From an uncultured bacterium (GTDB taxonomy: Bacteria; Auribacterota; Erginobacteria; Erginobacterales; Erginobacteraceae), in assembly GCA_937885075.1 (NCBI GenBank), contig CAKZYZ010000361.1, positions 1-43,368 on the forward strand: a stretch of 43,368 bases of DNA, written 5' to 3'. The notes beneath the pieces were generated by a model. It did not search any database and was not told where the DNA came from. It saw nothing but the letters and a program-made list of their open reading frames with translations. The translations under genes were made by a program, and so were the position numbers. Shown here piece after piece: positions 10,731 through 43,368 of the stretch (its first letter is position 1; each line of letters starts with the position of its first letter).

Positions 10731-11558
10731 TCAGACTTCTCCATATACCACTTTGTTCGCCCTCAAGGCCTTTAATGAAAATATCAGTGAGATCAAGTAT
10801 AAAAAAGTAGTTAGTAAACCAGGAATCCATAATCCGCCTAAAAGTACTATGCCTAACGGTGCAAATACATTCGCGCCATAAAGGGCTATAAAAAGCCAGG
10901 GTGATATTCGATTGATCCATTTATTTACTTTCATGAGTTCATAAATGGTCAGAATAGTAAAAGAGGTTAAAAACCAACCCGCGTAATTCTGTGCAGGGAT
11001 GTCATAATAAGGGCCACTATGAAACCATTCCCAAACTGGTAGTAAGTGAGACAATGCTGGATCTAAGATTAAATCAATGTTTAAAATTAGTAAGACGCCA
11101 GTAAACATTCTGATCCATCTCTGTTTTTCTCCAGCAAAAATTAGCGCTGAAATTCCATAGGATGACAGAGAAATACAAAACCAGCTGATCGGGATGGAAA
11201 TTGGAACCAGATTAAACCATTTGGGCCCAAGTAATGCGGAAAATTTATAGTCCCCGAATGGAAAGCCTGTCACTGTACCACAAACCTCAATCCCGAGCGT
11301 TGTGAGGTAGACTAAGAAAAAGACAAGTAGCCACTTTTTCCCTACTCTCAAACTAAGTGCTACGATAAGTATTCCAAATGACAACCATATCTGACCTTGC
11401 GCCCCTATTATAATTGACAAGTATAGAATTAGATCAATTTCTGTGTTTGATAAGGAGGGAAAATGATAACCGGAATGAATACCAATTGTCGCGTAACCAA
11501 TATGGGCAAATAAGGTGAATACGAAAAGACCAATGATTAATATCCTGACATACTTCAT
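10731..11558 (-). CDS. carotenoid biosynthesis (CruF/DUF422-like) membrane protein
   Basis: A 275-residue polytopic membrane protein with about seven or eight hydrophobic segments. The region EVCGTVTGFPFGDYKF and the later DPALSHLLPVWEWFHSGPYY resemble the DUF422 family. Known DUF422 members include CruF and the bisanhydrobacterioruberin hydratase, which add water to carotenoid end groups. No other carotenoid gene is nearby, so the substrate is open. AGGAAG lies nine bases before the ATG. Codon use is more AT-rich than in neighbours (Ile ATT, many TTT), hinting at recent acquisition. Confidence 0.65.
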   Translation of the reverse strand: MKYVRILIIGLFVFTLFAHIGYATIGIHSGYHFPSLSNTEIDLILYLSIIIGAQGQIWLSFGILIVALSLRVGKKWLLVFFLVYLTTLGIEVCGTVTGFPFGDYKFSALLGPKWFNLVPISIPISWFCISLSSYGISALIFAGEKQRWIRMFTGVLLILNIDLILDPALSHLLPVWEWFHSGPYYDIPAQNYAGWFLTSFTILTIYELMKVNKWINRISPWLFIALYGANVFAPLGIVLLGGLWIPGLLTTFLYLISLIFSLKALRANKVVYGEV

Positions 11559-11730
11559 AAATTACTACTTCCTGGATTTCAAATAGAACATATAAGTAAA
11601 GTTATAATTAGTATACTTAAATAAGCTGCGCCGGATAGGAGATTTTCAGGAAAGGAAAAGGGGGGAAGGTATGGATAGGATACGAGGCAATCCTTGATCA
11701 TCAAAGATAACCGGGTTGGATAAAATATAA

Positions 11731-13680: not shown

Positions 13681-13734
13681 TATCTGTCACGTCCTGATTT
13701 AACTATGTCACTTTCCCTGACAAAAACTCCATCT

Positions 13735-13850
13735 CCCCCCTACCTCTCCCCCTTTTTTGTCCACGGATTGCACAGATTACTCTGATTGTTTCGCCTCGGC
13801 TTGGCGGCTTTGCTGTCCACTAATTACACTAATTCACACTAATTGTTTCG
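13735..13850. repeat. dispersed repeat family C, copy 1
   Basis: It begins with the C-rich leader CCCCCCTACCTCTCCCCC, continues GTCCACGGATTGCACAGAT and ends CACTAATTGTTTCGCC. Nearly the same sequence occurs at 38627-38740, and a diverged copy at 37678-37790. Confidence 0.85.
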
Positions 13851-13910
13851 CCCCGCATCTTGTATCCTGTATCCCCGCATCTGACTTTGATCGTTGAAAG
13901 TTGAGCGCAC

Positions 13911-13940
13911 TGCCCGCCGTAGCCATGGCGAAGGCTGGTT
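13911..13940 (+). repeat. dispersed 30-bp repeat family D, copy 1
   Basis: The sequence around GCCGTAGCCATGGCGAAGG matches the reverse complement of 37880-37909 at 27 of 30 positions. It sits just past the stop of the aminotransferase gene. Confidence 0.75.
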
Positions 13941-13946
13941 CGGCGT

Positions 13947-15110
13947 TCAGTTTTTCCTAACGAACTCCGCAAGCCGGTCCAGGCCCTTATTCAGGTTCTC
14001 GATCGAATCCGCGTAGGACATCCGGATATTACCATCCGCGCCGAAAGCTATCCCGGGGACAACCGCTATCCGGGCCTGGTCCAGAAGATTGGCAGCCAGT
14101 TCCAGCGAAGGCTTTCCCAGAGCGGATATATTGGGGAAGGCGTAAAAAGCTCCCTTCGGCATAGTGCAGCTGATCCCTTCGATCCGATTCAGACGCTCAA
14201 TCATCAGGACTCTCCTCTCCTCAAAAGCCCGGCGCATCTCTTCCACGCAGCTCTGATCACCGGTCAAAGCCTCCAGGGCGGCATACTGGGAGGGAGTAGC
14301 GGGGCCGGAGGTGCTGTGGGACTGAAAACTGCTGATCGCCTGGGCCACATTTTCCGGTGCCGCCATGTAACCAATCCTCCAGCCGGTCATCGCGTATGAT
14401 TTCGATACCCCGTTGATGACAATGGTACGATCCTGAATATCCCGGCTCAATGATGCGATACTTATAGCTTCAAAACCGTCATAGACCAGCTTCTCATAGA
14501 TCTCATCACTTATCAGATAAAAATCGTTCTCTACGGCCAGTCCGGCAAGAAACTCCAGGTCATCACGGCTGTAACCGCTCCCGGATGGGTTAGCAGGGCT
14601 GGAGACGATCATCGCCCGGGTCCGGGGGGTGATCAGCGAGACCAGCCGGTCCCGATCAATCGGGAATCCGTCTTCTTCCACACTATCGAGAAAGACCGGT
14701 TCCGCGCCGGCTAACCGCACCTGTTCGGGATAGGTAACCCAGTAGGGAGAAGGTATAATTACTTCATCCCCTTCCCGGCAGATGGCCTGAAAGACATTAT
14801 AAAGAGAGTGCTTGGCCCCGCAGGATATAATTATCGATGAGGCTGGATAGTCGAGATTGTTGTCGCGCTGAAACTTTTCCCGCACCGCTGCGATCAGCTC
14901 CGGCATCCCTTTGGCCGGAGTATATCGGGTCTTGCCGCGATCGATTGCGTCCCGGGCGGCGGCACAGATATGGGCCGGAGTATCAAAATCCGGTTCTCCG
15001 GCCGCGAAACTTATAATATCAATCCCTTCTTTCTTTAACGCTTTAGCTTTACCGGTAATCTCCAGGGTCAAAGAAGGGCTGATCTGACTTAATCGTGGGG
15101 ATATATTCAT
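13947..15110 (-). CDS. aspC: aspartate aminotransferase (class I, PLP-dependent)
   Basis: A 387-residue fold-type I aminotransferase. It shows FAAGEPDFDTP near the N-terminus, the Y-TPAKGMPEL stretch, the PLP-phosphate region around GAKHSLYN, SPANPSGSGYS, SDEIYEKL, and the Schiff-base Lys237 in VSKSYAMTGWRIGY. The C-terminal arginine that binds the alpha-carboxylate lies in GNIRMSYA. It transfers an amino group from aspartate to 2-oxoglutarate; prephenate or other substrates are possible in this subgroup. It overlaps the upstream NDK-like gene by four bases (ATGA), so the two are one operon. Confidence 0.9.
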   Translation of the reverse strand: MNISPRLSQISPSLTLEITGKAKALKKEGIDIISFAAGEPDFDTPAHICAAARDAIDRGKTRYTPAKGMPELIAAVREKFQRDNNLDYPASSIIISCGAKHSLYNVFQAICREGDEVIIPSPYWVTYPEQVRLAGAEPVFLDSVEEDGFPIDRDRLVSLITPRTRAMIVSSPANPSGSGYSRDDLEFLAGLAVENDFYLISDEIYEKLVYDGFEAISIASLSRDIQDRTIVINGVSKSYAMTGWRIGYMAAPENVAQAISSFQSHSTSGPATPSQYAALEALTGDQSCVEEMRRAFEERRVLMIERLNRIEGISCTMPKGAFYAFPNISALGKPSLELAANLLDQARIAVVPGIAFGADGNIRMSYADSIENLNKGLDRLAEFVRKN

Positions 15111-29687: not shown

Positions 29688-31076
29688 CTATTTCCCGGGG
29701 CTCTTCAACCCGACCACAAAGATCAGGTTCAGAACAATAGCCACCACTACCGTCGATACAATCGGATTCTGTATGAAGAAACTGAAGAATAACGGCAGCG
29801 ATTTCGCTATCTCGGGCGGAAGAAATGAGAAAGAGATTCCGACGATGGTCGCGACGCTGACGATGAGTTTGTTGGTCTCCGTCATCTCCATCGACTTGAT
29901 AATCTGAATCCCTACCATCAGCAGCATACCCAGGATAATAAACATCGCTCCGCCATAGATCGCGTAGGGTATTACCGAAAAGAAGACCCCGACCTTAAAG
30001 ATCAGACCGATCAAGATCATGATAACTCCGCCGAAGATCATCATGCTCTTCGCGCCGACCCGGGTCAGGGAGAGAACTCCCAGGTTCTGGCCGGACGAGG
30101 TGCAGGGGATATTGCCGAAGAAGGAAGTAACCAGGGAGACCCCGGTTTCTACGAAGAGACCACGGTTGGTTCTCTCTGTGGTCAACTTCTGCCCTCCCAA
30201 TCCGGCGGTGCCCTGATAACATCCCACTGTATCCAGGACATTGGTCAGCTCAGCGACGAAAAGAATCAGAATCACCGGAATAAAATTCCAGGAGAGAGCA
30301 ACGGGCCGAGGCTGGCCAAAGACCATATTCCCGGCAAATAACTTTCCGAATGTCTTGGGTGCGACAAACCAGGGAGCGGAAGCTACCTGGGCAAAATCGA
30401 TCTTCCCCATTAACGCGGCGATGATTATCGCGACAAATATCCCCCAGAGAACGCAGGCATACCGCAGGATTCCTTTCGGAACTAAAAAGGAGATTACAAC
30501 CGGAATCAACATCGCGATCAAGGCCAGGACAATATTAGAAGTTGAGACAATAACCCCCCCATTGACATAGTCAGTGGGAAAGATCAGATCGATACTGGCC
30601 ACCTTTATCAGACTGGTGGCAATCACAATAAATAACGGCCCGATCACTACCGGGATGGCAATATAGGGGAGGAGCCGACCCAGTATTCCTTTCTTAAAGG
30701 GGATAACCAGTAGTACGGTAATGGCGCTGACAATAACCAAACCCCACCATACCATGACCGGTCCCACCGCGATGATCGATGGGATCATTACCGCGATAAA
30801 GATGATCGCCTGAGCCTGAGCTACAGGAAGTTTTAAAAATTTACACTGGATCGCCGTCTCCAATCCGGCGCCCACCAGCATGATCATCATCAGATAAGCT
30901 GTGATAGTGACATCCCATTTAAATACACTGGCAAAGATAATCGGAGTGATTATCGGTGTCAGGATCAAGACAAATACATGCTGAAATCCGTAGAGGATAT
31001 TCTCCCCGAATGACAGCTTGGCATCTATCCCGATCGCCAATGCGGCTCCACTATTAATACCTTGCTCTTCAGCCAT
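29688..31076 (-). CDS. NCS2-family purine/pyrimidine permease
   Basis: A 462-residue protein with about 13 hydrophobic segments. The NCS2 signature Q-N-x-G-x4-T-R-V-G is present as QNLGVLSLTRVG. NCS2 carriers take up xanthine, urate or uracil with protons. AAGGAGG lies six bases before the ATG. It is placed right after a PreA-like gene and ahead of a strong terminator. Context favours the substrate of the neighbouring molybdenum hydroxylase and PreA-like enzymes, that is, a purine or related heterocycle. The sequence alone does not separate purine from uracil carriers. Confidence 0.9.
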   Translation of the reverse strand: MAEEQGINSGAALAIGIDAKLSFGENILYGFQHVFVLILTPIITPIIFASVFKWDVTITAYLMMIMLVGAGLETAIQCKFLKLPVAQAQAIIFIAVMIPSIIAVGPVMVWWGLVIVSAITVLLVIPFKKGILGRLLPYIAIPVVIGPLFIVIATSLIKVASIDLIFPTDYVNGGVIVSTSNIVLALIAMLIPVVISFLVPKGILRYACVLWGIFVAIIIAALMGKIDFAQVASAPWFVAPKTFGKLFAGNMVFGQPRPVALSWNFIPVILILFVAELTNVLDTVGCYQGTAGLGGQKLTTERTNRGLFVETGVSLVTSFFGNIPCTSSGQNLGVLSLTRVGAKSMMIFGGVIMILIGLIFKVGVFFSVIPYAIYGGAMFIILGMLLMVGIQIIKSMEMTETNKLIVSVATIVGISFSFLPPEIAKSLPLFFSFFIQNPIVSTVVVAIVLNLIFVVGLKSPGK

Positions 31077-31331: not shown

Positions 31332-32510
31332 TCAATTATAATATACCTGAGTGATCGCATCAACCGGGCAGACACTGAGACAGAGCCCGCAGCCGGAACA
31401 TCGGTCAGGATCAATCTTTGCTGCGCCATCTATCCGGATCGCTCCGAACGCGCATACCTGCTCACATCGGCCGCAGGAGGTACACCGCTCTTCATTGATG
31501 GTAGGGATTATCTTTTCGGTTACGGCTACCCGCCCCTTCTCCTCGCGCTCCTCGATCTTCTTAATGGTCAGACCCCTGACCTCTTCCGGACTGGAAACAT
31601 CCAGATCACGGAGAAGCTCCTCCAGATCATTGATTATTTCAGTATAACGATCCGGCCCCTTCAGATGACCGGCCGTGCAGACCCCTACCAGGGTAGCCCC
31701 GGCCATCATGTATTCAATCACATCCGAGGCGGTGGTAACTCCGCCAATCCCGATGATGGGAAGATCTACCGCCAGGGCGATATCGAGCACCATCCGGAGG
31801 GTGATCGGCATGATCGCGGGCCCGGTCAGACCACCGACTCCCCGAGGCCCGCCCAGAATGGGGCGGCCGGTTCTGGTATCAATCTTCAGAGCCGGGCCGA
31901 GGGCGTCGGAACAAGCGATTCCATCGGCTCCCGCCTCTTTTACACCCTCCGCCCACTCCCGGGTGATATGGGAGAAGGTCCCGGAGAGCTTGACCACTAC
32001 CGGGCAGGATACCGCTTCTTTTACCAGCCGAACGGATTCGATCATCGGCGCCAGATCGGTGAGTTTCGGTTCCTGATAGTTCATCCCCGGGAACATGGCA
32101 TTGAGAATCTCCCCCATGTGGGGACAGTGGGTCGGGAGGATGATCATCCGGGCTCCGGCCGCTTCGGCTTGGGCGGCCAGTTCCGCCGCCTGCGCCGGAT
32201 AAAATCCAGCCAGATTCGCGATTACCAAGGCATCCCCCTCCCCTGCCTCCTTGATCCCCTCGGTAAACCAGTACTCCGTGGTCTTATCGGAACCAAAGAC
32301 CGAGTTTATCATTCCCGCCGGAACCGTGGTTAAGCACGGCAGAACATCGCTGACCGGCTGGGCGACGATCGTCTTGGTACAGATCGCCGAGACCCCGGAA
32401 CGGGAGATATCTTTAATCGTCTTCCCGTCTCTCCCATGGATACCGGCGGGGACAATTATGGGGTTTTTAAAGGTCAGACCGCAAAATGACGTGGTGAGAT
32501 CGATACTCAT
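31332..32510 (-). CDS. dihydropyrimidine-dehydrogenase-like (PreA-like) iron-sulfur flavoprotein A
   Basis: Residues 1-300 form a dihydroorotate-dehydrogenase-type FMN barrel (NPIIVPAGIHG, GGVTTASDVIEYMMAGA). Residues 340-385 hold two 4Fe-4S clusters (Cys343/346/349/353 and Cys371/374/377/381). The loop LPTHCPHMGE puts Cys129 where dihydropyrimidine dehydrogenase has its catalytic Cys in LNLSCPH, but the substrate-binding Asn is replaced by Pro. The Asn-Thr pair of the later loop is replaced by Ser-Asp (ACSDALGP). The substrate may therefore differ from uracil. The second of two ATGs (32510) is chosen, five bases after GGAGG. It is a paralogue of 34190-35359. Confidence 0.85.
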   Translation of the reverse strand: MSIDLTTSFCGLTFKNPIIVPAGIHGRDGKTIKDISRSGVSAICTKTIVAQPVSDVLPCLTTVPAGMINSVFGSDKTTEYWFTEGIKEAGEGDALVIANLAGFYPAQAAELAAQAEAAGARMIILPTHCPHMGEILNAMFPGMNYQEPKLTDLAPMIESVRLVKEAVSCPVVVKLSGTFSHITREWAEGVKEAGADGIACSDALGPALKIDTRTGRPILGGPRGVGGLTGPAIMPITLRMVLDIALAVDLPIIGIGGVTTASDVIEYMMAGATLVGVCTAGHLKGPDRYTEIINDLEELLRDLDVSSPEEVRGLTIKKIEEREEKGRVAVTEKIIPTINEERCTSCGRCEQVCAFGAIRIDGAAKIDPDRCSGCGLCLSVCPVDAITQVYYN

Positions 32511-32658
32511 CATAGCCTCCGTAAAAATAGTTAGTTCTATCTTTTACTGTGCGGGTAAATAATCTTGATTCTTCCTTTGTTCTATGCACAAATAGCAATA
32601 AATCCCAAATTCCAAGCACCAAATATCAATTATCCCCCACCTCAGCCCCAATTAAAGG

Positions 32659-32747
32659 CGAATATCGGATGTCGAACACCGAACTCCGAATGTCGAAGTT
32701 GCTTCGCATTGGCTTCTTTTACTTCGACATTCGATATTCGATATTCT
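32659..32747. repeat. GAATATCGGATGTCGAA-type inverted repeats
   Basis: Short words such as CGAATATCG, ATGTCGAACACCGAA and CGAATGTCGAAG recur. They are mirrored on the other arm by CTTCGACATTCGATATTCGA, forming an imperfect palindrome around GCTTCGCATTGGC. It is preceded by a CCCCCACCTCAGCCCC leader like those near other repeats. Confidence 0.65.
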
Positions 32748-32776
32748 GCGGTTCGTTATTCGCTTCTTAATAATAC

Positions 32777-34162
32777 CTATACCTCAATCCCATTCTTCCT
32801 CCAGAGAATCCGAGCCTCTTCCAGGCAGGCTGCCGCCACTTCCTCTTCATTCACCGTGGTCATCTTTCCCTCATCAAGAACAAGCTGACCGTCAATTATC
32901 ACACTCTCCACATCCCGACCGAGAAAGGTCATGGTGAAATACGAGATCACCGATGAAGGGGTAACCGGGGACGGGGAATCCGGTTGGACAATTAAGATAT
33001 CGGCCTTCTTGCCCACCGCCAGACTCCCGATCCGGTCTCCCCATCCCATCGCCCGGGCGGCATTGCCGAGGACAAAGTCCAGGACCTGGAAGGGCGGTAT
33101 CAGCATCGGGTTGGCGTTGTGGGCTTTGTGAATAAGATAGGCGTACCGGATATATTCGGAGGTATCGAGAGTGAAGAAGCAGTCATGGCCGATTGTCATG
33201 TTGATCCCCTGCTCCAGCATCTCCGGGACGGGGGCGACGCCATTGCCTCCCAGCGAGTTGGTCATCGGGGTATGGGAGACGTTCACTCTGTTGCGCTGCA
33301 GGATCTCGATATCTTCGGCGGACAGATCGATACAGTGGGCGGCCACCACGTCGGGACCGAGTAATCCGGCATCTTCCAGGACCTGAGGGGCGGATCTCCC
33401 GAACTTCTCGACCAGGAAGGCGCGGGGGATCTCCGCCACATGGATCTGGATCCCGCAGCCGTATCGGTCGGCGATCTCCCGGGCCTTTTTAAGGGTCTCC
33501 GGTGAGTTGGTATAGGCGGTATGGACCCCCAGCCTCCCCTGGATCCGGTTATCTTGCCCGGCCGGGTAGCGGGCCAGAAAATCCAAGTTCTCTTTAAAGC
33601 CCTTCTCCGCCATCCCCGGATCAAGTTTCTCCCGGATCGAGACCCCCGGGATCCGTTCGGTTACCTCAAACCCGACCTGGGCCCGGATGCCGACCTCCTC
33701 GATCGCCCGCCCCCCGGCCGCCAGCGCTCCGGGAAGAGCATTGGGTCCTTCGATCAGATCACAGACCGTGGTAGTCCCGTTCTTAATCATCTTCATAGCC
33801 GCATAACGGGTGGCGGCATATATACCCTCTTCGGTCTGAAGATCTTCCAGCCATTCCCATCCCATCTTCTGGAGCATATCCCAGAAGCTTTTAAGCTGGG
33901 TGAAATCAACCGGCTGATTGTGTCCCAGCAGATAGGCCATATGGGTGTGAGTAATAATAAATCCGGGCATCACAATCTTGCCACTCGCGTCGATGACCCG
34001 GTCCGCTTCCCCGTATTCCGCTTCGATTTGGGCGGTATTTCCGATGGCTGCGATCTCGTTTCCGATGACCGCCACCGCCCCATCCTCGATGATCTCACCG
34101 GTCATGGCGTCTTTTTCAAATGTCACGACCAGGCCGTTTTTAATCAATATATCAGCCTTCAT
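32777..34162 (-). CDS. amidohydrolase, SsnA/TrzA-type deaminase
   Basis: A 461-residue metal-dependent hydrolase. The metal ligands are HTH (His72, His74), HVAE, HCIDL and HDC (Asp in IGHDCFF), as in the SsnA, guanine deaminase and chlorohydrolase group. E. coli SsnA is encoded beside the selenium-linked xdh/yge genes, and the gene here sits between two PreA-like paralogues in a molybdenum hydroxylase cluster. Deamination or ring opening of an aromatic N-heterocycle is the best guess. AAGGAGACCGGAG precedes the ATG; 27 bases separate it from the upstream gene. The name SsnA is by context and general similarity. Confidence 0.85.
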   Translation of the reverse strand: MKADILIKNGLVVTFEKDAMTGEIIEDGAVAVIGNEIAAIGNTAQIEAEYGEADRVIDASGKIVMPGFIITHTHMAYLLGHNQPVDFTQLKSFWDMLQKMGWEWLEDLQTEEGIYAATRYAAMKMIKNGTTTVCDLIEGPNALPGALAAGGRAIEEVGIRAQVGFEVTERIPGVSIREKLDPGMAEKGFKENLDFLARYPAGQDNRIQGRLGVHTAYTNSPETLKKAREIADRYGCGIQIHVAEIPRAFLVEKFGRSAPQVLEDAGLLGPDVVAAHCIDLSAEDIEILQRNRVNVSHTPMTNSLGGNGVAPVPEMLEQGINMTIGHDCFFTLDTSEYIRYAYLIHKAHNANPMLIPPFQVLDFVLGNAARAMGWGDRIGSLAVGKKADILIVQPDSPSPVTPSSVISYFTMTFLGRDVESVIIDGQLVLDEGKMTTVNEEEVAAACLEEARILWRKNGIEV

Positions 34163-34189
34163 CTCCGGTCTCCTTATTTATCGGTTATT

Positions 34190-35359
34190 TTAGACAAAGT
34201 ACCCGGATTTAATTGCATTCACCGGGCAGACCTCAACACAGAGGCCGCAGCCGTAGCATTTTTTCTCATCGATCCGGGCAATATCGTCTACGATAATGGC
34301 TTCATAGATGCAGGACGCAGCGCACTTGCCGCAGGCCGTGCATTTTTCTTCATCGATTTTGGGCATGACCGGTTTGGTAATCGCCTGGAGGCCCTTCTCC
34401 TTCCGCTCCCTTACCCGCTGCAAGGCCAGGCCCCGGATCTCTTCCAGGGTTACCCCCTCCTCTTCGAAATAGCGCTCTAGATCGCGAATCAGCCTGGTGT
34501 ACACTTCCATCCCCTGGAGATGCCCGGCCGTACAGACCCCGACCATGCCGGCCCCGGCCATGATGTACTCTACCGCATCCCGCCAGGTGGAGATTCCGCC
34601 CGAGGCGATGATGGGGATGTCAAGATTCCAGGCGATCTCAAAGACCATCCGGAGCGCAATCGGCTTTAACGCTCCCCCCGAGAGGTTGCCGAATCCGCGC
34701 GGACCGCCCAGCTTGGGCTGCCCGGTCTCGATGTCGATGCTCAAAACCGGTCCGAAGGTATCGGTGACTTCTATCACATCCAGCCCGGCCTCCATTCCAG
34801 CCTTGACCCAGTCAACCGCGTTCTGACTGAAGACCGCCGAGAGTTTTCCGATCAGGGGAACATCAACCGCTTCCCGGACCGCTTTAACGGTATCATAAAA
34901 TGGCTGGGGATCATAAATCTCCGGAGGAGGAAGTTTCAGGTCCGGGAACTGGGCCTCGAGATTCTCGGCCAGAATGGAGCAGTGCGTGGGCAACTCCACG
35001 ATATCGGCCCCGGCCGCGACCGCTTTTGCCGCCAGTTCAGCCGTCTCTGCCGGATGGGTGCCGGCCAGGTTAACAATAAGGGGAACCCCGGCGGTTTTAG
35101 CTTCGGGGATCTCCTTTGTAAACCACTGATCGGCCGGTTCAACCGCCGCCAGTACACAGTTGAGAAAACCGCCCGGGACCAGGGCATAGCAGGGCAGCGG
35201 ATCCGGGACCGGGAAGGGGACGATACTCTTGGTGGTGACAGCCCCCACCCCGGTTTTAGCTACTTCCTTAATGGTATCGGCATTCCGGCCGTGCTCGCCC
35301 GAGGTAACGATGACCGGGTTTTTTAGCTCAACGTCTCCAATCTTTACTGAAAGATCCAT
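34190..35359 (-). CDS. dihydropyrimidine-dehydrogenase-like (PreA-like) iron-sulfur flavoprotein B
   Basis: The 389-residue paralogue of the gene at 31332, with the same layout: FMN barrel (NPVIVTSGEHG, GGISTWRDAVEYIMAGA) and two C-terminal clusters (CTACGKCAASC, CYGCGLCVEVC). Cys127 in ELPTHCSILAEN aligns with the catalytic Cys, but the following Pro-His of paralogue A is also lost. The later loop reads EVTDTFGP instead of the NT pair. AGGAGG lies six bases before the ATG. It overlaps the 3' end of the Mo-subunit gene by 32 bases, so translation is probably coupled and the flavoprotein may pass electrons to or from the hydroxylase. Its substrate is unknown. Confidence 0.85.
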   Translation of the reverse strand: MDLSVKIGDVELKNPVIVTSGEHGRNADTIKEVAKTGVGAVTTKSIVPFPVPDPLPCYALVPGGFLNCVLAAVEPADQWFTKEIPEAKTAGVPLIVNLAGTHPAETAELAAKAVAAGADIVELPTHCSILAENLEAQFPDLKLPPPEIYDPQPFYDTVKAVREAVDVPLIGKLSAVFSQNAVDWVKAGMEAGLDVIEVTDTFGPVLSIDIETGQPKLGGPRGFGNLSGGALKPIALRMVFEIAWNLDIPIIASGGISTWRDAVEYIMAGAGMVGVCTAGHLQGMEVYTRLIRDLERYFEEEGVTLEEIRGLALQRVRERKEKGLQAITKPVMPKIDEEKCTACGKCAASCIYEAIIVDDIARIDEKKCYGCGLCVEVCPVNAIKSGYFV

Positions 35360-37646
35360 GGCTATCCTCCTGTTGTTTTTGCAGGGCTTTTACGATATCC
35401 TGCCGGGTAATGGGCAGGCGGGTAAAACGTATTCCGGTGGCATCGGCTACGGCATTGGCAAAGGCGGCCGCCGCGCCGGCGACCGGCGGTTCACCGATCC
35501 CCTTGACCCCGTAGGGGCCGGTCGGATTATAGTCTTCCACCGAGATGGTCTCGGTGGGGATACGATCCTTGATGGTGGGGACGGCATAATCGGCAAAGTT
35601 GGCATTCTGAATATGACCGTCCTTCATCTGTATCTTCTCCAGGTGAGCCAGTCCGAAACCGGTTAAAGATGCTCCCATAACCTGCCCTTCCACCCCCAGG
35701 GGGTTCACCACTTTACCCAGATCATGGGCCGCGACATGGCGGAGCACTTCGACCCGGCCGGTATACCGGTCGATCCGGATCTTCATCAGGTGGCAACCAT
35801 AATTATAGGCGATATAGATATTTCCCTGGGTGGTCTCCTCATCATAATCGGCGACCGGGGCTTTAGAGAAGACCAGGTCCATCAGGGGAAACCCGGTCCA
35901 GTAGGCCGCGGTAGCCACTGAAGCCAGAGGGATCCGGGCGGAATCGTCGACGGCAAGAATGGCAAAATTTTCTTTCAGGATTACCATCTCTTCCTCAGCC
36001 TTAAACATCAGCGCGGCCATTGAGACCAGTGACTTCTTCACATTCTGAGCCGCCTTCCAGACCGCCATCCCGCCGACCGTGGTGCTCCGGGAGGCGACGG
36101 TCGGGCCGGAGTCATGGACCGAGTCGGTGTCAACCGGACGGACGGTTACTTGATCTATAGTTACTCCCATCACCTCGGCGGCAATCTGAGCGAAGACTGT
36201 CCGTGACCCCTGGCCCAGTTCGGTCAGTCCGACGCCAACCAGGATACTACCGTCCTGCATAGCCTGGACCGAACCGCCCACCACGTCAATCCCTTCCGCG
36301 CCGTTAGAGATGCCCTGGATAACTCCGGAATAGCCGGTTCCGTAAAGCCAACGGTCCGGATCCGGTTCGGGCGCGTCCGCCATTTCTTTCCGGCAGTCGT
36401 CGACCCGGTCAATACAGGCCTGCATCCCAACCGACTCTTCGAATATCTGACCGGTTCCGGTAGAGTCACCAGGCTTCAGTCCGTTCTTCCTCCGCAATTC
36501 CAGAGGATCCATATTAAGCGCCAGAGCCAGTTCTTCTATCTGGCACTCCGATCCATATATCCCCTGAGGGACACCAAACCCCCGGAAAGCGCCGGAATAG
36601 GTTTTATTGGTATAGACCGCTGTGGATGATCCCCGAACATTCGGAACACTATACGGTCCGGTGGCATGAATCAGAGCCTTCATCACCACAAAGGGACTCT
36701 CCGAGGCGTAGGCGCCTCCATCGAGAATAATCTTGAACTCCCGGGCTGTGATAGTTCCGTCCTTCTTCGCCCCGGTCCGGTAATAAATCCGGGAAGGATG
36801 ACGGAGATTGGAACCGATGATAGATTCTTCCCGGTCGTGCGCGATCCGGACCGGACGGCCGGTACGGAGAGCGGCCACAGCGGCCAGGGCGCCGATCTCA
36901 CTGGCTACGTCATCTTTGCCTCCGAAGGATCCTCCGGTAAAAGCCTGAACCACTTTGACCCGGGAGGCCGGGAGGTTGAGATTGGCGGCAATATGACCGC
37001 GGAGATGATAGGGGGATTGACAGGAAGCGTAGACCGTCACCCGTCCATTACTTTCGGGAACGGCACAGACCGACTCCGGCTCCATATAGGCGTGTTCCTG
37101 GTGCGAGGTCCGATAGGTATTCTCCACTATCACATCAGCTTCCCGGAAGCCCTTATCGATATCACCCTTGATCAGATTCTTGGAGACGACAATATTACCA
37201 CCGGGATGGATCTTCCGGGACCCTTCCGCCATGGCCTCATCAATATCCAGGATCGGTTCAATCTCTTCCAGATCGATTTTGATCGCCCGGGCTCCCGCCC
37301 GGGCCGCGTCCCTCGATTCCGCCACTACCAGACAGATCGATTCCCCCTCGTAGCGGATATCCTCGGTGGCCAGGAGCGGCTGATCGTAAGGGGGCAGAAT
37401 CCCCATGATATTCGGGCCGGGGATATCTTCTCCCCGGAGAATATCGACCACACCGGGCACTTTCAGAGCCAGAGCTACATCCACCGATTTAATATATCCG
37501 GCCGGGATACCGGCGCGGCGAGCGTAGCCGTGAAGTAAACCCGGGAACTGGAGATCTCCGGCGAACTTAGCTTTTCCGGTGACCAGTTCAACCCCGTCTA
37601 CCTTCCTGACCGGCTTTCCGACTATGGTTAGTTGGTCTGCTGTCAT
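35328..37646 (-). CDS. molybdenum hydroxylase, large Mo-cofactor subunit (XdhA-like)
   Basis: A 772-residue aldehyde oxidase/xanthine dehydrogenase family subunit. The molybdopterin domain shows GGSFGGKDDVASE, SGAFRGFGVPQG, VGLTELGQGSRT and the catalytic Glu719 in GVKGIGEPP. These enzymes add oxygen from water to carbon in N-heterocycles or aldehydes. Together with the FAD and 2Fe-2S genes upstream it forms a three-part enzyme. Neighbours (carbamoyltransferase, SsnA-type deaminase, permease) favour a purine-like substrate and possibly a selenium-dependent form, which sequence cannot show. The start is chosen by family fit; its Shine-Dalgarno is weak, and repeats fill the 460 bases upstream. 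Confidence 0.92.
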   Translation of the reverse strand: MTADQLTIVGKPVRKVDGVELVTGKAKFAGDLQFPGLLHGYARRAGIPAGYIKSVDVALALKVPGVVDILRGEDIPGPNIMGILPPYDQPLLATEDIRYEGESICLVVAESRDAARAGARAIKIDLEEIEPILDIDEAMAEGSRKIHPGGNIVVSKNLIKGDIDKGFREADVIVENTYRTSHQEHAYMEPESVCAVPESNGRVTVYASCQSPYHLRGHIAANLNLPASRVKVVQAFTGGSFGGKDDVASEIGALAAVAALRTGRPVRIAHDREESIIGSNLRHPSRIYYRTGAKKDGTITAREFKIILDGGAYASESPFVVMKALIHATGPYSVPNVRGSSTAVYTNKTYSGAFRGFGVPQGIYGSECQIEELALALNMDPLELRRKNGLKPGDSTGTGQIFEESVGMQACIDRVDDCRKEMADAPEPDPDRWLYGTGYSGVIQGISNGAEGIDVVGGSVQAMQDGSILVGVGLTELGQGSRTVFAQIAAEVMGVTIDQVTVRPVDTDSVHDSGPTVASRSTTVGGMAVWKAAQNVKKSLVSMAALMFKAEEEMVILKENFAILAVDDSARIPLASVATAAYWTGFPLMDLVFSKAPVADYDEETTQGNIYIAYNYGCHLMKIRIDRYTGRVEVLRHVAAHDLGKVVNPLGVEGQVMGASLTGFGLAHLEKIQMKDGHIQNANFADYAVPTIKDRIPTETISVEDYNPTGPYGVKGIGEPPVAGAAAAFANAVADATGIRFTRLPITRQDIVKALQKQQEDSHGSFSKDWRR

Positions 37647-37677
37647 ATTCTATCTGGAACTTCTTCCCCCAACCTCC

Positions 37678-37790
37678 CCCCCCCTTTTTTTGTCCACGGA
37701 TTTCACGGATTAACACCGATTGATCCCCCTACCTCGGCCCCTTACGCAGTCCACTAATTACACGAATTTGCACTAATTGTCCCCCCCTAC
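37678..37790. repeat. dispersed repeat family C, diverged copy 3
   Basis: Shares GTCCACGGATTTCAC, CCGATTGAT, GTCCACTAATTACAC and CACTAATTGT with the copies at 13735 and 38627, but the middle differs. Confidence 0.7.
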
Positions 37791-37879
37791 CTCCCTCCCT
37801 TTAAATGAACTACGAATTTCGCGAATTACACGAATTAAAACAGAGACAACTAAGAAAAATATGATTGGTTTTCTCCGTC

Positions 37880-37909
37880 AACCAACCTTCGCCAAGGCTA
37901 CGGCAGGCA
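37880..37909 (-). repeat. dispersed 30-bp repeat family D, copy 2
   Basis: Reverse complement of 13911-13940 with three differences; the core on the minus strand reads GCCGTAGCCTTGGCGAAGG. Confidence 0.75.
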
Positions 37910-37963
37910 AGGCCGTCAACTGCCAACCGTCAACTTTCTTCCCCCCCTACCTCGGCCCCATAA

Positions 37964-38072
37964 TTAATTTCCAATGGCCAACTTCCAATATCCAATTTCC
38001 AAATTCAACCTCGACGTTGTCATTCGCATTTGGAGATTGGCTATTGGTCATTGGATATTGGACATTTCTGTC
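37964..38072. repeat. CCAATTTCC-type imperfect palindrome
   Basis: Left arm words TTCCAATGGCCAAC and CCAATATCCAATTTCC are mirrored on the right by GGAGATTGGCTATTGG and CATTGGATATTGG. This is a non-coding palindromic element. Confidence 0.7.
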
Positions 38073-38106
38073 CTGAATCCTGCATCCTGAGTTACACGTT
38101 CGATCT

Positions 38107-38586
38107 TTATCTTTTCCTCTCCCCCCGCAACACCTTCGCAGCTTGCAGAACAGCTCTTATTATCATCCCGTAACCGGTGCAGCGGCAGATATTTCCGGCC
38201 AGGGCCTCTTCAATCTCATTCTCAGTCGGGTCGGGATTGCTCTCCAGCAGGGCCCGGGCACTCATAATCATTCCCGGGGTGCAGTATCCGCACTGAACCG
38301 CACCCTGGTCAAGAAATGACTCCTGGATGGGGTGGAGGCCGCCGGATCCATCGGAGACTCCTTCGATGGTCATCACCTCACACCCCTGCAATTTAGCCGC
38401 CGGGAGGAGGCAGGCGTTGACCGGTCTGCCATCGAGCAGGATGGTGCAGGCCCCGCATTCCCCCCGGCCGCAGCCTTCCTTGGTCCCGGTCATTCCGAGC
38501 TGATCCCTGATCAGATCCAGGGCTCTGGTCTGGGGCGGTGCCTCTATACTGACATCCTTGCCGTTACAGTTAAATTCAATCAGCAT
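38107..38586 (-). CDS. molybdenum hydroxylase, 2Fe-2S subunit
   Basis: The 159-residue electron-transfer subunit of the xanthine dehydrogenase type. The N-terminal plant-type ferredoxin domain has Cys39, Cys44, Cys47 and Cys59 (GCGRGECGACT, NAC). The helical C-terminal domain has Cys99, Cys102, Cys134 and Cys136 (QCGYCTPGM, NICRCTGY). All eight ligands are intact. It passes electrons from the Mo site to FAD. GGAGAAGAAGGA directly precedes the ATG. A family C repeat separates it from the FAD gene upstream. Confidence 0.95.
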   Translation of the reverse strand: MLIEFNCNGKDVSIEAPPQTRALDLIRDQLGMTGTKEGCGRGECGACTILLDGRPVNACLLPAAKLQGCEVMTIEGVSDGSGGLHPIQESFLDQGAVQCGYCTPGMIMSARALLESNPDPTENEIEEALAGNICRCTGYGMIIRAVLQAAKVLRGERKR

Positions 38587-38626: not shown

Positions 38627-38740
38627 TCCCCCTACCTCTCCCCCTTTTTTGTCCACGGATTTCACAGATTACTCTGATTATTTCGCCTCGGATCGGCGGC
38701 TTTGCTGTCCACTAATTACACTGATTCACACTAATTGTTT
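38627..38740. repeat. dispersed repeat family C, copy 2
   Basis: Nearly identical to 13735-13850. Its right end contains the last codons and stop (Asn-Asn-stop) of the FAD subunit gene, so the repeat has replaced or extended that gene's 3' end. Confidence 0.85.
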
Positions 38741-39585
38741 CCCTCGGCCTCGGCCCATGCTTCTGCCAGAGCATCGGTGAGAAGCGTACCAATCACCGAT
38801 CGGCGGTAGTCGGCGGTAGCCCGTACGTCGGAGATGGGGCTGATCTCAATGCTGGCTAACCGGGCGGCGTCCGCGATTATCCCCGGAGTCATCCCGGACC
38901 CTTTGAGGGTCGCCGCGGCTTTGAGCAATGGGATGGGAACGGGCCCCACGGAGCCGGCGGCGGCGCGGATCTCTCCGACCTTCCGCCCGGCCTTCACCTT
39001 CACCCAAACCGCCACGTTAACCTGGGAGATAATCTGTCCGTTGCGCTGGCCGATCTTCTTAAATGATGATCCTCCGGAGAGATTTTTCCGGGGGATCTTT
39101 ATACCGGCCAGAAGTTCATCCTGATTCAGGACGGTTTTTTTGGGCCCGGTAAAAAATTCTGCCACCGCTACTTCCCGCCGACCGGCCGGTGAGATCAGAA
39201 CCAGTTCCCCTTCCAGCACAATCAATGGGGTGATGGTATCCCCACAGGGAGAAGCATTACAGATATTCCCCCCCACCGTAGCCAGATTTCGAATCTGGAG
39301 AGAGCCCACCGAAGCCGCCCCCTGAACCAGGACCGAAGGCAGCCGGGGATCGGAGGCCAGTTCCGCTAACGGCGTGGCCGCGCCAATTTCCAGACCCTCC
39401 TCCGTCTCCCTTATTCCCCGCAACTCCGGTATCCGGGAGATATCAATCAAGGGATCGGGTGAAAGCATGTCCGCGGCCATCAGGACCATCAAATCCGTCC
39501 CACCGCCGATAAACCGGCCCTCCGGAGCAGCGACTCTAGCCTGTAGAGCCTCTTCGATTGTGGAAGGAAATATATAGTCTGTCAT
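38731..39585 (-). CDS. molybdenum hydroxylase, FAD subunit
   Basis: The FAD-binding subunit of a xanthine dehydrogenase/CO dehydrogenase-type enzyme, 284 residues from the chosen ATG. FAD contacts are seen in FIGGGTDL (25-32) and LATVGGNICNASPCGDT, followed by the CO dehydrogenase flavoprotein C-terminal domain. I chose MTDYIFPSTIEEAL (start 39585), since family members begin close to this strand and AGGA lies nine bases upstream; an ATG at 39621 would add 12 unlike residues. The FAD, 2Fe-2S, Mo gene order gives one enzyme. The stop lies inside a family C repeat. Confidence 0.92.
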   Translation of the reverse strand: MTDYIFPSTIEEALQARVAAPEGRFIGGGTDLMVLMAADMLSPDPLIDISRIPELRGIRETEEGLEIGAATPLAELASDPRLPSVLVQGAASVGSLQIRNLATVGGNICNASPCGDTITPLIVLEGELVLISPAGRREVAVAEFFTGPKKTVLNQDELLAGIKIPRKNLSGGSSFKKIGQRNGQIISQVNVAVWVKVKAGRKVGEIRAAAGSVGPVPIPLLKAAATLKGSGMTPGIIADAARLASIEISPISDVRATADYRRSVIGTLLTDALAEAWAEAEGNN

Positions 39586-39719
39586 TATGCTCGATCCTGA
39601 AGTGTTTCGAGTAAGTTCCATTTTTTAAATTTGTAAACTTTAGCTCCCCTCTCTCCGCCGGCAAGCTTCAGTAAAACATATCCCCTCATAGCGTACTCAC
39701 CACAGCGGGCCCACACGAT

Positions 39720-39892: not shown

Positions 39893-40894
39893 TTACCGGT
39901 ACCCTCCCATCAGAAGGGCCAGCATTGCCTTTTCCGTGTGGAGACGGTTCTCCGCTTCATCGAAGATAATCGAGGCCGGAGAGTTGAGAACTTCATCGGT
40001 CACCTCGGTATTCCGGGAGATCGGCATACAGTGCATCACCAGAGCATCTTTTTTCGCCATATCCACTACCTTCTGGTCGACACACCATTCATCCTTCAAT
40101 TTAGCCTTCATTTTCTGGAACTCGGGATCCCCGGCAAAGTGGGTCTCCAGTCCTTTGGCGAACTCTTCCGGAGAGACCCAGGAATAGACATTGATGAAAT
40201 CGGCATCCTTGACCGCCTCTTCATAGGACCGGACGATATTAATGCTTCCGCCCGACAGCTCCGCCGCCTCATCGGCCATAGCCTTGAAATTAAGATCCGG
40301 GTCAAAGCCCTCCGGGCAGGCTATGGAGAGATCAAAACCAAGTTTCCCCGCCATCAGCATGGTCGAGTTGGGCAACCCCGCCGGGGGGTTGGCGGTCCGG
40401 TATCCCCAGCAGATAGCCACCTTGAGATTCTGGATCGATCCTTTCTTCTCTATCATGGTCATCGCGTCGGCAAATGCCTGACAGGGATGCTCGACCGGAC
40501 AAGAGGCATTGATGAGCGGAATTGTGGTATATTCAGCCGCCGAATCCACCCGTTCCCGACGGAGAGCGCGATAGGCGATTCCATCCAGGTAACAGGATAA
40601 GGTCTTGATGGTATCATGCCAATCTTCCTCCGCGGCCTCACCTACCCAGAGGCGGTTCTGGTCCAGCCAGAGCATATGCCCCCCTAACTGGGTCATCGCC
40701 GTCTCAAAAGATATACTGGTCCGGGTGGAAGGGGTCTCAAAGACACCCCCCAGACTCTTTCCCTCCAGAAGACGATGAGGACGCCCCATTTTGAGTTCCA
40801 GTTTGAGCTCCCGGGCGACCTCCAGAATCAACTTAATCTCATCCGAATTAAGATCGGTTATCCCGGTAATATTCCTTCCTTTCAGTTCCGACAT
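39893..40894 (-). CDS. carbamoyltransferase of the OTC/ATC family (YgeW/AOTC-like)
   Basis: A 333-residue transcarbamylase. Carbamoyl-phosphate binding residues are clear: STRTS at 56-60 and HPCQ at 136-139, with the C-terminal EAENRLHTEKA. The amino-acceptor loops are not those of ornithine transcarbamylase: HCMPISRNTEV (289-299) replaces HCLPAxRG-E, and VYSWVSPEE replaces the usual D-x-SMG loop. YgeW and N-acetylornithine transcarbamylases also have tryptophan-containing loops there. In this cluster it may run in the catabolic direction, giving carbamoyl phosphate from a carbamoylated product such as oxamate or a ureido acid. AAGGAGGA lies six bases upstream. Substrate unproven. Confidence 0.87.
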   Translation of the reverse strand: MSELKGRNITGITDLNSDEIKLILEVARELKLELKMGRPHRLLEGKSLGGVFETPSTRTSISFETAMTQLGGHMLWLDQNRLWVGEAAEEDWHDTIKTLSCYLDGIAYRALRRERVDSAAEYTTIPLINASCPVEHPCQAFADAMTMIEKKGSIQNLKVAICWGYRTANPPAGLPNSTMLMAGKLGFDLSIACPEGFDPDLNFKAMADEAAELSGGSINIVRSYEEAVKDADFINVYSWVSPEEFAKGLETHFAGDPEFQKMKAKLKDEWCVDQKVVDMAKKDALVMHCMPISRNTEVTDEVLNSPASIIFDEAENRLHTEKAMLALLMGGYR

Positions 40895-41067: not shown

Positions 41068-42198
41068 TTATACTTCCCCTTCCGCCAGGTAGCGTTTCAG
41101 TTCCTCCACGGTCCAGTTGGGGTCGAAGCCCATGGTCTCTACCGTCCTTCCGATACTCCGGAAATCACGGTTCAGCAACCCCTCGGCCAGGGTGGTAATC
41201 GCGTCGGAGATCGGGGTCGGGACACCTAACATCTTCCCGAGTGAAGAAAATGTCACCAGGCCGTAAGGGATATCTTCGGTAAAGTGGCGGACATCCAGAG
41301 AGAAGGGACCTTCGCAGACTTCCAGAAAGGGGGTATGTATCGCCTCGTAGATCGGCAGGACATAATCCGCTCCGTCCCGGTTCCACTTCACCATCAGTAT
41401 CTCTTCTTCCAGAGTGTATTGCTTCATCCCCAGTTTCTCTCCGATCGCCATCCGCTCCCGGTCGAGCAGTTCGATCAGATGCACCACCGCCGGGGTATTC
41501 TCCTTCGGACCGAAGAGTTTAAAATCATCTTCTCCCAGTTCGATCCGGGCCGCGTTGCAGATCATGGGCGGGGTGTGAGTGATCGCGTTATAATCAACCA
41601 GGATTGAATCGATCGCGTTCTGACCTTTCCGGAGGGTATACCCGTGTTCCGGAGGGAAGACCTGCCCGGCCACTTCGATTACATAATCAATATCCTTTCC
41701 GGGGAAGGTAGCGATTATCAGGTTCTGGGTCCGATTCTCCAGGCGGACCTGGTAATCCCCGAATTTAGAGGCCCCGTAAGGGAGAGTATTACAATCAGCC
41801 AGGTAAATCTTCTTATCGATCCCCATCTCCTTTAACACCTTGCCCCAGGTGAGGGACGCTCCGCCTTTACCCAGATAGATCACCACCTGACCTTCTTCCA
41901 GGTGGGGAGCGATCAAGCGGGCGTACTCTTCACAGACAAAGTAAGGGACCGGGTTGAGAATAACCTGGGCGCCTTTTATCGCTTCCGCGATATCGCTGGT
42001 GGCACAGTCGACGCCGAAGAAACCGGTGGGATTAGAGTCTATATCCAGAACCTCAATCCCACCTTTCTCCCTGATCCCGACCACTTTTTCTTCGCTCCGG
42101 GAAAAGAGAGCGACTTCAAAGCCCAACTTAGCCATATCGGCCGCCGCCATCCTTCCTCCGCTACCGGCGCCTACTACCGCTACTTTCTTAATATTCAT
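41068..42198 (-). CDS. NAD(P)-dependent opine/octopine dehydrogenase family protein
   Basis: A 376-residue two-domain oxidoreductase. The Rossmann domain begins VAVVGAGSGGRMAAADMA (GAGSGG at 10-15) with FSR at the strand-2 end, a basic residue compatible with NADP. The C-terminal helical domain is the octopine dehydrogenase type, with the catalytic-type histidine in NAITHTPPMI. Known members reductively join or split an amino acid and a keto acid. Its role in the catabolic cluster is unclear; oxidation of an N-substituted amino acid product is possible. AAGGAGAAGAAGAG precedes the ATG. Confidence 0.87.
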   Translation of the reverse strand: MNIKKVAVVGAGSGGRMAAADMAKLGFEVALFSRSEEKVVGIREKGGIEVLDIDSNPTGFFGVDCATSDIAEAIKGAQVILNPVPYFVCEEYARLIAPHLEEGQVVIYLGKGGASLTWGKVLKEMGIDKKIYLADCNTLPYGASKFGDYQVRLENRTQNLIIATFPGKDIDYVIEVAGQVFPPEHGYTLRKGQNAIDSILVDYNAITHTPPMICNAARIELGEDDFKLFGPKENTPAVVHLIELLDRERMAIGEKLGMKQYTLEEEILMVKWNRDGADYVLPIYEAIHTPFLEVCEGPFSLDVRHFTEDIPYGLVTFSSLGKMLGVPTPISDAITTLAEGLLNRDFRSIGRTVETMGFDPNWTVEELKRYLAEGEV

Positions 42199-42386: not shown

Positions 42387-42416
42387 TAATGTTGGTTCAA
42401 GGCTTGCCCACTCTTA
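42387..42416. repeat. dispersed 30-bp repeat family E, copy 2
   Basis: Matches 19297-19326 at 26 of 30 positions. It includes the TAA stop of the hydantoinase B gene. Just upstream (42248-42350) are CCACTAAGACACC and AGTGTCTTTGTGG words forming an imperfect inverted repeat. Confidence 0.65.
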
Positions 42417-43171
42417 TTTTTTCGAAGAAAAAATAAGATTACGCAGATCTTTGGTTGCTTCCGGATTGACTATCAGTTCCTCCCCTTCCAGGATCACGCC
42501 GTAGTCATCGCGGGCGCTGGCAAGAGAGATAATCTCGTTGCGGGCATCCTCCCTGACCAGCTCGGGGTCACGACTGAGGGGATTACCCCATCCCCCGCCC
42601 CCGGATGGGTAGGTGGAATAGGTGTCGCCCTTCTTCAGCGGAACCGCTTCCTTCGCCCTTAATTCCTTTTCCTCCGGGGTGCCTTCATTGATATAGGCGA
42701 TGTTCCGGCTGCCGGGTTGTCCATCATAGAGACCATAGGGAGGGATCTTCTTCCCATCGCCGAACATGACCAGGGTCGGGTTATCGTCATATAACCTGAT
42801 CTTATATTTCGCTCCGCAGCCGCCCCGGAACTCACCGGCGCCGCCGGAGTCGGTGGTAAACTCATTGAACTCGGTGATATGAGGATAATCGGCCTCATTG
42901 GTCTCGATATTGGGGGCGATCAACCCCCCCAGGTCGATCCCATCGCCGATATAATGACGGCCATCCAGACCCTGTATCCCTCCCGCGCCGCCGAATCCGT
43001 TGAAACCGAACATGACATAAAAATTGTCATTCCGCGGATCGACACCGGTAATGGTGGGTCCGTTCCATCGGTTCCAGCCGGCCGGGACCCGGTCGGGGAG
43101 GACCAGGGAGAGGGCCTTCCAGCAGGCCTCCAGGATAGCGCAGGCCGTATCCAGAGTGCAGGAGGCAACCG
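42414..43171 (-). CDS. hydantoinase B/oxoprolinase subunit, C-terminal part
   Basis: About 252 residues of the HyuB family (hydantoinase B, 5-oxoprolinase B, acetone carboxylase-like). It includes GWNRWNGPTITG, FGFNGFGGAGG, HITEFNEFTTDSGGAGEFRGG and the late PSGGGGWGNPLSRDP. The family performs ATP-dependent opening of hydantoins or 5-oxoproline together with an A subunit, not seen here. Only the C-terminal half or less is present: the 5' part is replaced by sequencing adapter from 43172 onward, so the missing codons are an assembly loss, not biology. It would be the first visible gene of the catabolic cluster. Confidence 0.9.
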
Positions 43172-43249
43172 AGATCGGAAGAGCACACGTCTGAACTCCA
43201 GTCACACTGATATATCTCGTATGCCGTCTTCTGCTTGAAAAAAAAAAAA
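43172..43249 (+). other. Illumina TruSeq-type adapter, index and poly-A (artefact)
   Basis: AGATCGGAAGAGCACACGTC begins at 43172. The adapter continues to 43205, followed by an eight-base index ACTGATAT (43206-43213), the P7 flow-cell part ATCTCGTATGCC...GCTTG (43214-43237) and 12 A's (43238-43249). This is read-through library adapter, not genomic DNA. On the minus strand it yields the artefact peptide SSRRRHTRYISVTGVQ. Confidence 0.98.
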
Positions 43250-43368
43250 GGCCATTAGCTGTACCATACCCAGGCACACAACAATACTGATAGCAGATAT
43301 CACCCAACGCCAGCAAGCTACTTTCTCTCCCATCCTCCTCCACCCATCCTCTCCCATCTATCTATCTC
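43250..43368. other. untrustworthy tail beyond the adapter
   Basis: Low-complexity C/T-rich sequence ending TCTATCTATCTC follows the adapter. It has no coding or repeat link to the rest of the window and is probably chimeric or error sequence. Confidence 0.85.

Follow-up and report, generated by a model that had tools for sequence, protein, structure and literature searches.

Introduction

The 43,368-nucleotide contig CAKZYZ010000361.1 of an uncultured bacterium (assembly GCA_937885075.1; Auribacterota, Erginobacteraceae), which as a whole is termed the window here, carries on its minus strand two paralogous genes for relatives of dihydropyrimidine dehydrogenase (DPD) and of the proteins PreA and UacX. 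One question raised by this locus is what these PreA/UacX-like reductases with flavin mononucleotide (FMN) and two [4Fe-4S] clusters, copy A (31332..32513; 393 amino acids) and copy B (34190..35359; 389 amino acids; 48% identical to A), act upon. On balance we favour the view that A and B belong to the DPD/PreA/UacX superfamily as FMN reductases that depend on ferredoxin and reductively dearomatise a nitrogen heterocycle other than a pyrimidine, most likely a purine derivative. Literature searches for the gene cluster in which they lie found no paper.

Domains and pocket residues

According to domain searches, both proteins consist of a DHO_dh barrel (PF01180) followed by a C-terminal two-cluster ferredoxin domain, and both lack a FAD/NAD(P)H domain. 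The AlphaFold models of A and B (mean pLDDT 79.7 and 87.2, respectively) have pig DPD as their top match in the Protein Data Bank, residues 1-387 of model B matching residues 531-1006 of the pig enzyme with a Z score of 37.5 and 2.8 A over 358 residues, a range covering both the barrel and the iron-sulphur domain. These predictions indicate the fold and the layout of the cofactors, not the substrate.

On alignment to pig DPD, at about 30% identity, the loops LPTHCPH of copy A and LPTHCSI of copy B place P-T-H-C on N668-L-S-C671, such that N668 is replaced by Pro and S670 by His with C671 retained; further along, N736 is replaced by Asp in both copies, and T737 is Ala in A and Thr in B, the pair reading D-A and D-T. 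We take N668, C671 and the N736-T737 pair of the pig enzyme to be substrate-contact or base-binding residues; an open literature search on the pig pocket residues found no paper. The correspondences come from the sequence alignment, the structure models being ligand-free. A preliminary description of this DNA had correctly recognised both loops, the retained catalytic Cys and the loss of the asparagines equivalent to N668 and N736, but the 'SD or TD' pair that it assigned to the later site sits on T735-N736, one residue out of register, and it missed both the replacement of S670 by His and a further asparagine, N609, which is retained in A and B as in all 56 rows of our careful alignment. Nor is it clearly seen that the lost asparagines are supplied from elsewhere, as that description had considered: besides the retained N609, an Asn in the loop insertion is found in 8 of 10 A sequences and in none of the three B sequences.

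Conservation across genomes

A single scan of 84,980 species genomes returned 35 loci, 11 of which hold true relatives of A or B (L039-L047, L049 and the fragment L070), the archaeal L048 and the clostridial L050 being more distant. Including the window genome (G000) there are 12 carriers (the others being G059-G067, G069 and G071), with the copy of G069 split by a frameshift and that of G071 spread over two contigs. The carriers belong to Spirochaetota (L039, L041, L044, L046, L049, L070), Cloacimonadota (L040), Atribacterota (L042), Bipolaricaulota (L043, L045, L047) and the window's own phylum, in which the window genome is the only one of 44 to carry A or B; among the 392 sampled Spirochaetota three do so, all of them known carriers. 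Copy B is confined to the window, L039 and L040, and in the remaining nine genomes the same core cluster includes A but no B.

In all 13 A and B sequences we find T at 669, C at 671 and D at 736, together with the FMN lysines (equivalents of K574 and K709) and the eight ferredoxin cysteines, while P at 668 and H at 670 each occur in 12, the exception being copy B of L040. Among the other 43 rows of the 56-row alignment P at 668 is absent, and position 736 is N in 41 and D in two rows of a very divergent type, designated 'Type3'. The CSI ending of the loop occurs in copy B of the window alone; both of its orthologues have CPH. To judge from this conservation, the altered pocket residues are neither chance nor the quirk of one genome. 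A pseudogene or otherwise non-functional copy was likewise rejected, the cofactor residues being invariant.

Family placement

Of two trees, the careful one comprises 56 rows with the motif columns removed, and the quick one 93 rows with all columns. The superfamily profile search gave 97 matches, from which L180 (a duplicate) and L083, L049, L006, L063 and L066 (partial or frameshifted) were dropped; the careful tree omits 37 of the 93 rows, comprising fused and long-branch rows (C53, C358), most PyrD and near-copies of PreA. E. coli YgfK was unmatched by the profile at 1e-15 and is thus absent from the tree.

In the careful tree the 10 A rows make up one clade and the 3 B rows another, and the two unite in a clade with support of 100/99; the LPTHC motif thus marks a clade, a point that the preliminary description had proposed to check. 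This clade stands beside a group with SsnA-linked UacX-type proteins (94/88 in the careful tree, 99 in the quick tree), not within it, the UacX clade being separately supported (99/97), and by these sequences the UacX group is likely its sister. Both trees place A and B outside PreA, and forcing them together with PreA costs 23 log-likelihood units but is not rejected (p-AU 0.0735 in the approximately unbiased, AU, test). On the PreA equivalog model NF006183 (cut-off 335) A scores 168 and B 170.7 bits, about half of what is required. Dihydroorotate dehydrogenase (PyrD) was excluded as an identity by scores below the cut-off of 270 on TIGR01037 (191.2 and 180.1 bits) and by a position outside the PyrD group (100/98).

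The UacX of Clostridioides difficile reduces yanthine (2,8-dioxopurine; PMC12507026). To compare its relatives, we read the SsnA regions of 60 of the 86 matching Bacillota genomes; six of these hold a UacX-type protein of 359-363 amino acids, 36-41% identical to B, and the order in L145 (ygeX, M20, ssnA, uacT, UacX-type, hyuA, xdhA) fits the C. difficile cluster as given in the same paper. The features of the UacX type, read from these homologues and not from C. difficile Q181U4 itself, include x-T-H at 668-670 and, following the N736 pair, G-P, both shared with A and B; in the careful alignment the stretch with the catalytic Cys is missing and N at 736 is retained. A and B thus unite a Cys like that of DPD and a His like that of UacX with a D of their own at 736.

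Further variation surrounds this site. The loop reads x-x-H-Y, with the DPD Cys stretch gone, in L124, L145, L170, L172, L173, L174, L201, L204, L048 and L011. PreA-type proteins of the SsnA regions L125, L126, L128, L131, L133, L160, L162, L165 and L168 (44-46% identical to E. coli PreA) have S at N668, as do those of the SsnA regions L157 and L159 (35-36% identical to E. coli PreA), which moreover have Phe at the position of the catalytic Cys.

The gene cluster and its sister loci

Read along the minus strand, the window cluster runs from a HyuB-type (Hydantoinase_B) open reading frame (42414..43343) through an octopine/nopaline dehydrogenase-family enzyme (opineDH; 41068..42198), an ornithine-carbamoyltransferase-family enzyme (OTC; 39893..40894) in a place analogous to that of YgeW, an XdhB-type FAD subunit (38731..39621), an XdhC-type [2Fe-2S] subunit (38107..38586) and an XdhA-type molybdenum subunit (35328..37646), which shares 32 bases with the start of copy B, to copy B, an SsnA-like amidohydrolase (32777..34162), copy A, an NCS2 nucleobase permease (29688..31076), which is a probable importer, and DeoC. 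The hydrolase between A and B scores 249.9 bits on TIGR03314, whose cut-off is 455.5, and has orthologues of 64-77% identity in the sister clusters. A PreT-type partner was looked for in the window cluster and not found.

The contig ends within HyuB, and positions 43172-43204 of that reading frame are an exact 33-base TruSeq adapter followed by an index-like sequence and poly-A, an assembly artefact by which the N-terminal part of HyuB is lost and the final ~200 bases cannot be trusted; HyuA would lie off the contig, adjoining HyuB as in the sister clusters. The 460-base gap between XdhC and XdhA (37647-38106) contains repeated phrases, e.g. AATTCGTGTAATTCG, resembling dispersed intergenic repeats.

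The core order XdhB-XdhC-XdhA-SsnA-like-(B)-A is conserved in L040, L042, L043, L045-L047 and L049. Nine of the other 11 carriers have orthologues of the opine-type dehydrogenase (68-77% identity), a search of the draft genomes G061 and G069 finding none, and all nine have the order HyuA-HyuB-opineDH-OTC, of which the window shows HyuB-opineDH-OTC. This set shares a contig with the core in seven genomes (G059, G060, G062, G063, G065, G066, G067) and lies on a different one in G064 and G071. The best models for the HyuA and HyuB proteins are those of caprolactamase, below cut-off. HyuA, HyuB and opineDH of the cluster type were the best match in none of the 60 Bacillota SsnA regions and in none of nine further SsnA/UacX regions. 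Importers vary, with NCS2 permeases in the window, G060 and G061 (the latter two being 67% orthologues) and BMP-type ABC importers in L046, L227 and L228; some clusters also contain an aldehyde:ferredoxin oxidoreductase together with a YgfS-like ferredoxin, which could plausibly supply or take up the electrons of ferredoxin. In XdhA, the positions of E802 and R880 of bovine xanthine oxidase are D and K in all nine core clusters examined, and E and R in SsnA-linked clostridial enzymes such as that of L145. The neighbourhood is a purine-type catabolic cluster and not a uracil pathway.

These neighbours bear on the alternative that A and B are ordinary dihydropyrimidine dehydrogenases for uracil or thymine, whose binding residues have drifted. 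A and B do have the same fold and keep the Cys, N609 and the FMN lysines, and a sisterhood with PreA is not rejected; but the PreA scores reach only half of the cut-off, N668P and N736D are conserved across phyla, the adjoining genes encode XdhABC, an SsnA-like hydrolase, HyuAB and OTC with no Pyd pathway, and the host has other PreA-like proteins, on contigs C47 and C358. We consider this alternative very improbable, and uracil unlikely as a substrate.

Canonical yanthine systems in the same genomes

Seven of the 12 carriers encode YgfK above cut-off and three further carriers (G064, G066, G069) have a UacX-type gene adjoining SsnA, so that 10 of the 12 possess one or the other, the window genome and G060 having neither over cut-off. 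Where a yanthine reductase beside SsnA is already in the genome, the LPTHC set most simply serves something else; hence the LPTHC enzymes are unlikely to be simply one more canonical yanthine reductase, and the D/K pair of XdhA points likewise to a use other than with yanthine.

This co-existence bears on a second alternative, in which A and B are divergent UacX proteins that reduce yanthine in a variant reductive urate pathway, the SsnA-like hydrolase standing in for SsnA. The UacX group is the nearest characterised relative in both trees, x-T-H and G-P are shared, an SsnA-like hydrolase and XdhABC adjoin the reductases, and the window genome has YgeX (C243) in addition to lacking a YgfK over cut-off. 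The additional YgfK or UacX of most carriers speaks against it, as do the pocket, in which the UacX type has N736 but no Cys loop and the reverse holds for A and B, and the absence of the HyuAB-opineDH type from the SsnA and UacX regions compared. We regard this alternative as unlikely, if the most serious of those considered; the substrate is probably other than yanthine, though in G000 and G060 it could be yanthine. The 'distinct substrate class' of the preliminary description is in this way indirectly favoured by the clade, the low PreA scores, the purine-type cluster and the 10 carriers with YgfK or UacX, and qualified by the placement with PreA that was not rejected.

The same genomes contain further genes of these families. 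An SsnA over cut-off in G000 (L189:1826-3166, on C196) is surrounded by TPR and polysaccharide-export genes and has no reductase nearby. G000 also holds three more modules of Xdh and PreA-like proteins, on C53 (L192), C47 (L193) and C358 (L194), one of which includes a 724-amino-acid protein with a UacX/YgfK-like barrel fused to a GltD-type part. A third type of module, in G066 (L202:4890-19901) and G064 (L203), comprises genes for a YgfS-like ferredoxin, M20, fused Xdh and SsnA-like proteins and the 'Type3' reductase, whose residue at the N736 position is D, L202 also showing a BMP-ABC importer and aldehyde:ferredoxin oxidoreductase.

A proposed route

From this material we infer a route, with its reactions, electron donor and substrate, as follows. 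The nucleobase importer would bring in the substrate, and the XdhABC-type molybdenum hydroxylase would set the oxidation state of the ring. Copy A (plus B in three genomes) would then pass electrons from reduced ferredoxin through the two [4Fe-4S] clusters to FMN and saturate a ring bond, with the retained Cys, perhaps together with the new His, as proton donor; a D at 736, where DPD has N, would fit a substrate with N-H donors at that point, as in fully oxidised purines. The SsnA-like hydrolase would open the ring and by doing so pull the unfavourable reduction towards its product, after which HyuAB and the carbamoyltransferase would dismantle the resulting ureide to yield carbamoyl phosphate, and the opine-type dehydrogenase would process the leftover N-substituted amino acid. 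The ferredoxin-driven reduction by A and the hydrolysis of its product by the SsnA-like enzyme are proposed because of the analogy with YgfK/UacX and PydAc. The yanthine reduction by YgfK/UacX was detected in vitro only when coupled to SsnA (PMC12507026), and PydAc, which acts on uracil and has two ferredoxin domains, uses reduced ferredoxin (PMC7332683).

It had also been suggested that the two copies act in successive steps, A and B reducing successive intermediates of one substrate. Both adjoin the SsnA-like gene in three genomes, and their divergence predates the sampled lineages; nevertheless, nine of the 12 genomes manage with A and the same core, seven of them also with the same HyuAB-opineDH-OTC set. 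A division of labour of this kind is therefore unsupported and rather improbable, and B is better described as an accessory copy.

The genes downstream, to judge from their families, lean towards an N-substituted hydantoin. One tentative and on present evidence unlikely specification of our proposal is accordingly an anaerobic pathway, with the LPTHC reductases, for an N-methylated or N-substituted purine, e.g. a derivative of 7-methylxanthine or 7-methylguanine. Here the molybdenum enzyme, reductive dearomatisation and ring opening by the SsnA-like hydrolase would give an N-methylhydantoin, which ATP-dependent HyuAB and the carbamoyltransferase would convert to an N-methylamino acid and carbamoyl phosphate, the N-methyl group being handled by the opine-type dehydrogenase, a sarcosine-type reductase or corrinoid methyltransferases. 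The presence of HyuB-opineDH-OTC in 10 of the 12 carriers, the window showing HyuB only of the hydantoinase pair, supports this specification. Further hints of N-methylation come from neighbouring genes: those for an SbnB-like dehydrogenase, a corrinoid protein and MtmB/MttB-like proteins occur in G062, G063, G065 and G067 (the corrinoid Pfam being confirmed in two of those clusters and the MtmB Pfam in one), and the B component of a selenoprotein reductase locus in G066 scores best, below cut-off, on the NCBIfam models of sarcosine GrdF/GrdG.

L222 has genes of glycine/sarcosine-type reductase (10838-12170, 13400-14700) with in-frame TGA, probably encoding selenocysteine, both at a CxxC-like site and within a GrdA-like reading frame. 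At L191:9904-14252 (G000, C427) an MtmB-family methyltransferase without an in-frame stop has as neighbours a HyuA and an SsnA-like hydrolase, the latter sharing 40% identity with that of the window. Creatinine was considered as a substrate and set aside: it would suit HyuAB and a sarcosine reductase, but XdhABC and the reductase would be left without a role.

Several points weigh against the reading of A and B as purine-type dearomatases. The substrate contacts derive from alignment to a distant enzyme, the active-site loops of model A are of low confidence, the AU test does not reject placement with PreA, and in G000 and G060 the cluster may still serve as the pathway for yanthine. The excess of YgfK among carriers is, moreover, modest (7/12 versus 90/392 Spirochaetota; Fisher p 0.010, with mixed phyla) and within Spirochaetota amounts to 3/6 carriers (p 0.14).

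Significance

Reductive urate degradation was worked out only in 2025. If our reading is true, uncultivated anaerobes have turned the combination of a molybdenum enzyme, a flavin dearomatase and an SsnA-type hydrolase to one more substrate, and genomes can be searched for the pathway by means of the LPTHC/D signature. A survey based on the SsnA family, such as that of PMC12507026, would probably miss this cluster because the adjoining hydrolase is below the family cut-off. The pocket of A and B also offers a direct test of how a DPD-type pocket chooses between pyrimidines and purines.

Comparison with known systems

Pig DPD and E. coli PreA share with A and B the fold, C671, N609 and the FMN lysines, but A and B differ from them in N668P, S670H and N736D, and in having neither a FAD/NADPH part nor a PreT partner in the cluster. 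PydAc (PMC7332683) resembles A and B in its FMN barrel without a FAD domain and in being driven by reduced ferredoxin; it has two ferredoxin domains and acts on uracil, whereas A and B contain a single domain of this kind and have changed residues in the pocket. The uricolytic YgfK-SsnA-XdhD cluster of E. coli has the same combination of a molybdenum enzyme, a flavin reductase, an SsnA-type hydrolase and a carbamoyltransferase, from which the LPTHC clusters differ in a reductase of another clade, a hydrolase below the SsnA cut-off and HyuAB/opineDH in place of HyuA/YgeY/YgeX, the two types of cluster often occurring together in one genome. UacX (Q181U4) is similar in combining PF01180 with a ferredoxin domain and no FAD domain, and in having an SsnA-type hydrolase and Xdh as neighbours. 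Its type, however, has S at 668, no Cys loop and N-S at 736-737, where A and B have P, the Cys, a longer loop and D at 736; it adjoins SsnA proper, whereas the window's hydrolase is only SsnA-like; and its cluster contains HyuA, YgeY and YgeX, where that of A and B has HyuAB and opineDH instead.

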